This document shows, piece after piece, positions 27,040 through 28,763 of a stretch of DNA of 64,000 nucleotides. The notes beneath the pieces were generated by a model. That model saw nothing but the letters and a program-made list of their open reading frames with translations. It was not told the DNA's origin and searched no databases. How positions within the stretch are numbered: position 1 is the stretch's first letter; every line of letters starts with the position of its first letter. Origin of the DNA: Kordia periserrulae (GTDB taxonomy: Bacteria > Bacteroidota > Bacteroidia > Flavobacteriales > Flavobacteriaceae); contig NZ_QBKT01000005.1 in assembly GCF_003054265.1 (NCBI RefSeq), positions 186,001 to 250,000 of the forward strand, written 5' to 3'. The translations under genes were made by a program, and so were the position numbers.

Positions 27040-28089
27040 CTAAAGCTGCGTATAATATCGTTGATTCTCAAACTCCGTACGCACATACGATAACGGATTG
27101 TTGCGTTGCATCATTGGTTGTAGTACACATACAACAGTTGTTTTTCCTTTGATGATGACTTTTTGTCCAGAAGTGTAGGCTTTCCATCTAAATTTTTCAA
27201 TGTCGATTCCCATGTCTTTGATGCGCTTGCTGTATGCTTCATTGGCGTCAATCCAATCCATAATTTCGTTGGCATTGCTTAGTTTTGGCACATCTTCGTC
27301 ATCTGGAAATTGAATTTCCCAACGTATAGGAATATTAAATTTATACGAGAATGCTTCGCCAGGTTCGCCTTCTTCTTTGGTTCGGATAGCATCTAGCCAA
27401 TGAATGTCTTCCAACGGATATTTGCGAATAAACTGCTTTGATAAGTCTACATTTCCAGGCGATTGCGCTGTTGGATAATACCCGTAAAATACTTTTGCCA
27501 AGTAATGCTTTTGAAAGTTTCCGTTGAATACTGTTGCATGCGGCGTCGCAAATACTTTCGGTTGATGATTTGCTGTAAAGGTTTGTCGTAACACTTGCAA
27601 GAGTTGTTTATTTTTCCCCAATTCGGAAGTGTGAAACACCAATTTGCTATCAGCAGCGAGTACATTTTCTAGTTTAGGAAGTTTATCCTCTTTTAAGCAA
27701 TTCAACAAAGCTTCTTGTGATAAAAGTTCACCATGAATCGTAGTTTCGAGCGATAGTCCTTTTTTGGAATTTCCTTTGTTGACAATATGAATTTCTTCAA
27801 AATCTTTTCCATCGTGATTTTTATTTAGCCACGAAATAATTTCTTGAAGCGAAAAGGCATCATCTACAATGGTGTATTGTTGGGCTTCAAAGTGTGCTTT
27901 GGCGTCTTTATAATAGGTGCTTTCACCTTTGTCATATCCTGCAATAAACACGACTGATTGCTTTGAAATGGCAACTTCTTCGTTATTAATTGCGGTTAAA
28001 TTTTCTTTTTTCTCTTCTGGGGAACATGCAAAAAACAATGTCAATACAAGTCCCATGAATGCGGTCATTTTGAATGTTCTTGTTTTCAT
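27040..28089 (-). CDS. Lipoprotein of unknown function
   Basis: A 349-residue lipoprotein with lipobox FFAC (cysteine about residue 22) followed by SPEEKKEN. The mature part starts with a Rossmann-like alternation (SVVFIAGYDKGE, IHIVNKGN, KLVFHTSEL, KVFATPHATVFNG), resembling the caspase/CHAT- or DUF4347-type fold that guards secreted adhesins. The catalytic His-Cys pair is not evident, so this is only a hint. The C-terminal part (IPIRWEIQFPDDED to the end) is unassigned. The gene stands 242 bp downstream of a small open frame; the cloverleaf structure lies between them. Confidence 0.6.
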   Translation of the reverse strand: MKTRTFKMTAFMGLVLTLFFACSPEEKKENLTAINNEEVAISKQSVVFIAGYDKGESTYYKDAKAHFEAQQYTIVDDAFSLQEIISWLNKNHDGKDFEEIHIVNKGNSKKGLSLETTIHGELLSQEALLNCLKEDKLPKLENVLAADSKLVFHTSELGKNKQLLQVLRQTFTANHQPKVFATPHATVFNGNFQKHYLAKVFYGYYPTAQSPGNVDLSKQFIRKYPLEDIHWLDAIRTKEEGEPGEAFSYKFNIPIRWEIQFPDDEDVPKLSNANEIMDWIDANEAYSKRIKDMGIDIEKFRWKAYTSGQKVIIKGKTTVVCVLQPMMQRNNPLSYVRTEFENQRYYTQL

Positions 28090-28124
28090 AGTAGTAGTAT
28101 TTATAATTAGTAAATCCTTTAATT

Positions 28125-28164
28125 CTTCAATCTTTCAATCTTTCAATCTTTCAATCATTTAATC
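28125..28164. repeat. Octamer tandem repeat TTTCAATC
   Basis: Four near-identical TTTCAATC units, then a degenerate unit TTTAATCG, in the leader region upstream of the lipoprotein gene on the minus strand. A related inverted GATTGAAAGATTCAA pair occurs at about 19974-19997. Confidence 0.65.
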
Positions 28165-28182
28165 GTTTAGTTGCATAACATA

Positions 28183-28306
28183 AAAATCAGCTCGAATGTT
28201 TTTATTTTTTGGATAAAAACGACTATCGGTATTGTTTTCCTAACCCACTCTTCAATACGTTTGATAGTCCTTTTTGACAGCCATCAAAAAGATTCAAGCT
28301 GATTTT
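28183..28306 (-). ncRNA. Perfect four-way cloverleaf, candidate structured RNA or cruciform
   Basis: Four helices fit together with no unpaired base at the junction. P1: 28183-28197 with 28292-28306 (14 of 15 paired; the one C/A mismatch becomes G-U when read on the minus strand). P2: 28198-28205 with 28213-28220 (8 of 8). P3: 28221-28227 with 28263-28269 (7 of 7), extended past a small internal loop by 28229-28234 with 28253-28258 (6 of 6), apical loop 18 nt. P4: 28270-28277 with 28284-28291 (8 of 8). The wobble suggests a minus-strand transcript; P1 is followed there by TTTTTA. It lies between two minus-strand genes. Identity is unknown; a folded mobile element or 3' end structure is also possible. 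Confidence 0.55.
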
Positions 28307-28331
28307 CCCAACTAACCAACCTAAACGTTTT

Positions 28332-28547
28332 TTATCTTTTTAATGTGATCGATGCTTTTTGTCGTACAGGCAATGCAATATGTTGTAAGCGCATGCGTTT
28401 TGCGAGTGTGGGACTCGAAATCCATTTTCCTTCTTGAAATAAATCAACAGTGTTGACTTTGCCTTCTGCGTCAAATTGCATTCGAATTTGTGAGTAAATG
28501 TCCAAATACGTTTGAATCATTTTTGTTGCTCTTATATCGTACCACAT
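28332..28547 (-). CDS. Small hypothetical protein
   Basis: 71 residues from the ATG at 28547 (a second ATG at 28520 would give 62). The sequence has the ordinary composition of a soluble protein: an amphipathic helix (MIQTYLDIYSQIRMQF), a polar turn, a strand, and a basic C-terminus ending ASITLKR. It has no signal peptide and no known motif. It is co-directional with the lipoprotein gene downstream, with the cloverleaf starting 25 bp after its stop codon. Being short, it could be a chance frame. Confidence 0.4.
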   Translation of the reverse strand: MWYDIRATKMIQTYLDIYSQIRMQFDAEGKVNTVDLFQEGKWISSPTLAKRMRLQHIALPVRQKASITLKR

Positions 28548-28763
28548 TTGTTTTTCTTTTTTAATTACATTTCAAATGTAGTGGCAACTTGCTGCTTTTT
28601 GGGAGTGGTTTTAGAATTCGTTGGTTGTAAACTAGAATTCGTAAAGATGTTTGTTAAAGAAAGGGGAAAATTTAGCAGGTTTTTATTTTTTGCCTGTAAC
28701 GAAACCGTCTTTTTCCTATGTAGAATTAGTTTTTAAACTCTTTCGTAACTATTTGAACCTGAA

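Follow-up and report, generated by a model that had tools for sequence, protein, structure and literature searches.

What role does a four-helix structure play between two genes of Kordia periserrulae? The window analysed here, a 64,000-nt stretch of the genome, contains at 28183-28306 a 124-nt sequence in which a first-pass annotation had recognized a cloverleaf around a four-way junction, and for which it had proposed a structured RNA belonging to no known family. We examined the predicted fold, its conservation among relatives, the sequences that flank it and the genes on either side.

A conserved and covarying cloverleaf in Kordia

Both strands of 28183-28306 were predicted to fold into the helices originally described, with minimum energies of -38.0 kcal/mol for the plus and -39.9 kcal/mol for the minus strand. 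On neither strand did any of 200 dinucleotide shuffles match the cloverleaf fold (fold z -7.5 and -6.3), which bears out the earlier statement that chance formation was very unlikely. The single plus-strand mismatch in P1, a C-A, was correctly seen to be a G-U pair on the minus strand. The zero-linker junction was accurate for the window copy, which has no unpaired junction base, but is not general among relatives: in the consensus structure most of them have linkers of 1 nt (P3 to P4) and 2 nt (P4 to P1), and in two of the 11 copies an additional base separates P1 from P2. The limits given for the element likewise described the cloverleaf, but the conserved unit also takes in the flank at 28321-28307 and the U-run to 28182 (Table 1).

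Table 1 Features of the cloverleaf locus, with positions in the window
Feature	Position	Strand	Remarks
Predicted lipoprotein gene	27040..28089	-	349 codons; in 11/11 Kordia
U-run TTTTT ending P1	28182..28186	-	
P1 3' arm ATTCGAGCTGATTTT	28183..28197	-	GCTGATTTT invariant in 11/11
P4 hairpin	28198..28220	-	Most variable arm; loop CGAAAGCA in many relatives
P3 arm	28221..28269	-	Internal bulges; TATTGAAGAGTGGG nearly invariant, G009 and G007 deviate
P2 hairpin	28270..28291	-	Loop GATGGCTGTC in 10/11 Kordia, one base off in G003
P1 5' arm AAAATCAGCTTGAAT	28292..28306	-	Putative terminator stem
P1 stem	28306-28292 with 28197-28183	-	15 bp, one G-U (C-A on plus)
Pre-terminator motif GGTTGGTTAGTTGGG	28307..28321	-	15 nt; 10 nt past the stop of the 71-codon gene
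71-codon gene	28332..28547	-	Homologous to C-terminal module of VWA-domain proteins
Candidate sigma-A -7 box TACATTTG (TAnnTTTG)	28573..28580	-	In 11/11 species

Covariation was computed on a MAFFT alignment of the 11 cloverleaf copies. Standard pairs occupied 93.0% of cells, a value that dropped to 27.8-46.1% when the partners were slid by 1-3 columns. Two-sided (compensatory) changes occurred at 13 of 47 pairs (26 cells), including 4 of the 7 outer P3 pairs and 3 of the 8 P4 pairs, and none of 500 shuffles reached these values; further pair types taken alone were unremarkable (41/500 shuffles). The homologues thus do carry covarying pairs, in agreement with the structured-RNA role first suggested. 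The RNAalifold energy was -33.2, whereas column shuffles averaged -4.2 (0/200). The antisense alignment also lay far from its shuffles, as any inverted repeat would, so this test does not pick a strand. G-U cells outnumbered A-C cells by 29 to 7 in favour of the window's minus strand; a single column pair, U-G in 10/11 copies, supplied 10 of the 29. From this excess, the RNA most likely lies on the minus strand, which is also that of both neighbouring genes. The P2 and P3 loop sequences were nearly invariant across Kordia and P4 was variable, its loop being degenerate in the window copy and in G010; P1 of G007 has a shifted register with one bulge. The 124-nt cloverleaf is therefore a real, non-chance and conserved structure.

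A covariance model built from the minus-strand rows found the cloverleaf at one locus per genome in all 11 Kordia genomes examined, at 133-172 bits on the minus strand against at most 44.8 bits on the opposite strand; the K. periserrulae genome itself holds one copy. Of nine weaker matches, eight fell on the reverse strand of loci already counted and one was a simple hairpin in G002. The view that the element belongs to no known RNA family was upheld by the Rfam 15 covariance models, none of which reached its gathering score anywhere in the window; two matches around the element were far below threshold (E 1.6 and 8.9).

Searches beyond the genus returned short matches. At E <=0.1, 10 of 299 family genomes matched, two of them Kordia and eight others with matches of 45-62 nt, in a search that scored 10 candidates per genome and from which distant full copies may escape. 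The full model, run with no filters on 12 loci of lipoprotein homologues (10 non-Kordia and 2 of the Kordia paralogue), gave a best score of 13.7 bits. In a laxer search, 6 of 13 genomes gave nine short matches in all, each 38-75 nt long, and the two viewed were simple hairpins preceded by the flank motif described below. In viral contigs the P2-loop and P3-loop strings had 3 and 49 exact short matches, respectively; two of the 3 scored 12 bits with the model and one scored none.

This distribution bears on whether the element acts as DNA, in the form of a cruciform, an attachment site or the relic of a mobile repeat. Such an element would fit the folding of both strands and the 15-bp terminal inverted repeats. 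Against it stand the one-strand G-U bias, the nearly invariant loops, a phage collection that gave no cloverleaf match, and the occurrence at a single locus in 11/11 Kordia, where the several copies per genome of a MITE- or REP-like pattern were not found. We consider a DNA-level role very improbable.

A flank motif that precedes terminator-like hairpins

The flank GGTTGGTTAGTTGGG was exact in 9 of the 11 Kordia genomes, altered in G005 and shortened in G003. It stays beside the cloverleaf where extra DNA of ~160 bp (G001) or ~330 bp (G006) splits off the 71-codon gene, and conservation on the other side stops at the U-run. An outer helix pairing the 5' and 3' flanks was rejected: the window, G010 and G004 showed more complementarity than shuffles did, yet the mean z over 11 species was -0.86.

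Judged by its genomic counts, the core of this 5' flank, GGTTGGTTAGTT, is a Flavobacteriaceae motif. The 13-mer TGGTTGGTTAGTT had 282 matches in 149 family genomes against 38 for a reversed-letter control, and was present in 100 of these genomes against 35 for the control. This 13-mer starts with T and the Kordia element with A, and its four matches in the K. periserrulae genome therefore exclude the element. A count of the 15-mer with 2 mismatches in that genome (7 against 14 for the control) had spoken for no general motif, a view overturned by the exact 13-mer. Outside the family but within the order, the motif was not enriched (15 against 13 for the control in 104 genomes, many of them small or incomplete).

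We then scored motif loci with a terminator rule (stem of at least 7 with at least 3 G-C, a T-run and a loop of at most 24 nt, within 80 nt). The rule was satisfied downstream of the motif in 21 of 30 loci, one per genome, compared to 0/30 upstream, 1/30 on the opposite strand and 15/1061 at random positions. A second set of 20 hand-picked sites in five genomes gave 14/20 downstream and 0/20 upstream. Several of these 50 loci are homologous between genomes, so that the counts are not independent; the 15 of 50 with no rule-passing terminator include coding-looking sites and sites like L201, where a hairpin is followed by too few T. Similarly, nearly all non-Kordia matches of the covariance model, among the alignments shown, consisted of the motif, a simple hairpin and a U-run, the exception being L053 with its poor flank. 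A motif-like flank and simple hairpin came right after the end of a lipoprotein homologue in two of the four alignments shown from the 12 lipoprotein-homologue loci (L039 and L040), and at L151 a motif-hairpin directly follows the stop of a 152-codon gene. The genes read upstream of motif terminators (L155-L184, L185-L204) include some that we take, from sequence resemblance, to be ClpB-like and UvrA-like. A repeated secreted-protein type was also seen among them.

The association of GGTTGGTTAGTT with terminators offers a testable termination or 3'-end signal across Flavobacteriaceae, and this pre-terminator motif may be of broader significance than the cloverleaf. In the form GGUUGGUUAGUU it is possibly a Flavobacteriaceae-specific signal read by a dedicated factor.

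Since the motif precedes terminators in the family, the 71-codon gene most likely has its intrinsic terminator in P1 and the U-run. The first-pass proposal of a novel structured minus-strand RNA agrees with the covariation, the strand bias and the Rfam result, but missed this terminator nature, to which the flank and P1 with its U-run point. The motif, P1 with its A-tract and U-run, and the position after a stop codon together make a terminator likely. In the window P1 starts 25 nt past the stop of that gene; in G001 and G006 it is displaced by the extra DNA. When the loop limit was raised to 129 nt, P1 plus the U-run passed the rule in 8 of 11 Kordia, compared to 19 of 358 stretches drawn at random from these loci. 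The three that failed were G005, G008 and G009, whose U-run reads four T and then C. At the 24-nt limit the window copy fails, and a generic terminator scan with a loop limit of 8 did not return it. The arms of P1 in the window are separated by 94 nt, bridged by three helices. Short loops are usual in intrinsic terminators but are no strict requirement.

Some motif loci resemble small RNA genes. In this sRNA-like family a sigma-54-like TGGCAC-N5-TTG site lies 91-96 nt ahead of the motif and is followed by a GAG(N)TGGTTACT-like block, the motif and a terminator. Its members are L095 (1395-1560) and L096 (1400-1560), both on contig C3 of the K. periserrulae genome, together with L158, L168, L185 and L204. 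The TGGCAC-N5-TTG site occurred in 7 of 56 motif loci, among them L198, which has no GAG(N)TGGTTACT-like block. Rfam gave no match at the sRNA-like stretches of L095, L096, L158 and L168. A third motif copy lies 207 bp beyond the pair in the K. periserrulae genome.

The cloverleaf might itself be a trans-acting sRNA, either made independently or processed from the 3' UTR of the 71-codon gene. In that case the motif and the P2-P4 loops would pair with RNAs or bind a protein and P1 would merely be the 3' terminator. The use of the same motif and terminator to end sRNA-like loci, two of them in this genome behind sigma-54-like sites, agrees with such a role, as do the nearly invariant P2 and P3 loops. 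However, no conserved promoter of its own was found by eye directly upstream, where G001 and G006 carry different extra DNA, and in G003 the stop of the gene almost touches the motif. We rate an sRNA as rather unlikely, although this reading overlaps with that of a terminator and the two do not exclude each other.

Neighbouring genes and predicted read-through

The placement of the element between a small open frame and a lipoprotein gene was confirmed, the small frame being the 71-codon gene. This gene looks truly coding: differences from the window fell 81/76/222 over the three codon positions (10 relatives, G001 in part). Its product matches the C-terminal module of longer frames, mostly of 720-741 residues, which occur in 11 of the 299 family genomes searched, including two Kordia, with modest E values of 5e-8 to 0.007 for the non-Kordia matches. 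The one longer frame read contains a VWA domain, and in the K. periserrulae genome a larger VWA-type gene directly precedes a paralogue of the lipoprotein gene. The 71-codon gene is a free-standing copy of this module; by eye, a similar module appears to end a 191-residue predicted lipoprotein at L050. Among 199 family genomes, 12 encode homologues of the lipoprotein, and two of these are Kordia. It had no Pfam match, and its AlphaFold model was poor (pLDDT 56, pTM 0.42).

The available text of PMC9723704 gives TAnnTTTG as the sigma-A -7 consensus. The candidate box TACATTTG lies 33-78 nt ahead of the 71-codon gene in all 11 species. Between P1 and the lipoprotein start, neither TAnnTTTG nor TAnnTTG occurred in any of the 11 species, an absence that is no proof of a missing promoter. 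This spacer measures 63-111 nt across the 11 species and 93 nt in the window (28090-28182), and is A/T-rich and poorly conserved. It contains GATTGAAA / ATTAAAAG repeats, which are abundant in several Kordia, and its length varies. Upstream of the 71-codon gene there are two direct repeats ACGAATTCTA, at 28642-28633 and 28621-28612 (21 bp apart), and a near-palindrome TACATTTGAAATGTA at 28580-28566. The nearer repeat is present in the 10 Kordia rows that cover that stretch and the farther one in the rows that reach that far; G002 and G007 have a disrupted palindrome. Repeats and palindrome are possible regulator sites.

The presence of a candidate box upstream of the 71-codon gene only, with none in the spacer, is suggestive of incomplete termination or attenuation. 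In the simplest picture, both genes would be served by a single promoter and separated by a partial terminator. We propose, as a fairly probable explanation, that the element is a minus-strand intrinsic terminator with a branched head, partial in its action, which would set the dose of the lipoprotein through read-through. Transcription would begin at a start predicted upstream of the 71-codon gene and continue beyond its stop codon and across the GGUUGGUUAGUUGGG motif. First would come the 5' arm of P1, after which P2, P3 and P4 would each fold on emergence, and the 3' arm of P1, ending in the U-run, would be made last. P2-P4 are stacked with few or no linkers and would therefore hold the arms of P1 close, so that P1 could zip as though its loop were small and halt RNA polymerase at the U-run. 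With ~94 nt between the arms, this scheme assumes that folding is completed soon enough for termination. Termination would be partial, the lipoprotein gene being reached by read-through at a dose set by the element, as in attenuation, and the conserved P2 and P3 loops may be the site at which efficiency is tuned.

A plain terminator has no need of conserved loop sequences. The same terminator could nevertheless be complete, with an idle head and a non-consensus promoter of its own for the lipoprotein gene. This alternative shares its terminator part with the branched partial terminator and draws on the same resemblance of the motif and P1 to other family terminators, but the covarying pairs of the head and loops nearly invariant across the genus go beyond the needs of an idle loop, and the spacer is without a promoter consensus. 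It appears unlikely to us. Doubtful as well, if plausible, is a sensor within the terminator, recruited by GGUUGGUUAGUU, in which a ligand, protein or RNA bound to the nearly invariant loops of the P2-P4 head would ease or impede closure of P1 without an antiterminator. If the head were such a sensor, binding would directly set read-through into the lipoprotein gene.

The conserved loops could also belong to a riboswitch-like ligand-binding leader of the lipoprotein gene, acting through translation or a separate expression platform. The element lies 93 nt ahead of the lipoprotein start and co-occurs with this gene in 11/11 genomes. Inspection by eye showed CAGCU of the 5' arm of P1 (28306-28292) to be complementary over 5 bp to GGCUG in the nearly invariant P2 loop (28291-28270). 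The two could perhaps pair transiently or as an alternative, and this might account for the conservation of that loop. However, P1 is a long stem of high stability (-15.6 to -21.1 kcal/mol when computed with a model loop), the spacer is poorly conserved and A/T-rich up to the start codon, and the element was not found at the loci searched of the lipoprotein paralogue or of homologues elsewhere. A leader of this kind is, in our judgement, improbable.

Relation to known terminators and structured RNAs

Candidate structured RNAs of Bacteroidetes include 6S-flavo, Flavo-1 and Bacteroid-trp, according to the available text of PMC2864571. Like the Kordia element they are phylum-specific and came from comparative genomics; unlike them, the window matches no Rfam family, these included. 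The elements HMP2_4205, HMP2_1065 and HMP2_1032 of Bacteroidetes, in the available text of PMC8040213, are 80-132 bp, palindromic and predicted to be terminators, and we liken them to the Kordia element, and set them apart as palindromic, by that description alone.

The Flavobacteriaceae intrinsic terminators resemble the Kordia element in their A-tract, stem, U-run and 5' motif GGTTGGTTAGTT, and several likewise lie just past a stop codon. Those that pass our rule are simple hairpins, whereas the Kordia element has a three-helix head of ~94 nt, nearly invariant loops and a short U-run; the rule sees loops of at most 24 nt, and larger heads in other Flavobacteriaceae terminators would escape it. 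Operon transcription attenuators are terminator-like elements between genes under one promoter. The Kordia element, which is terminator-like and lies between two genes that apparently share one promoter, is similar in this respect, but no antiterminator hairpin or leader peptide was noticed in Kordia, and a sensor, if any, would lie inside the terminator loop.

Intrinsic terminators and attenuators are thus a known kind, and no description of a branched terminator or of the pre-terminator motif was found in a limited literature search. As far as our searches show, what is new is a covarying four-way junction with nearly invariant loops inside a putative terminator loop, in all 11 Kordia. Intrinsic terminators are usually pictured as a single short hairpin. 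If the Kordia element is a terminator, its loop can house a structured and perhaps regulated domain, and tight stacking can take the place of a short loop.
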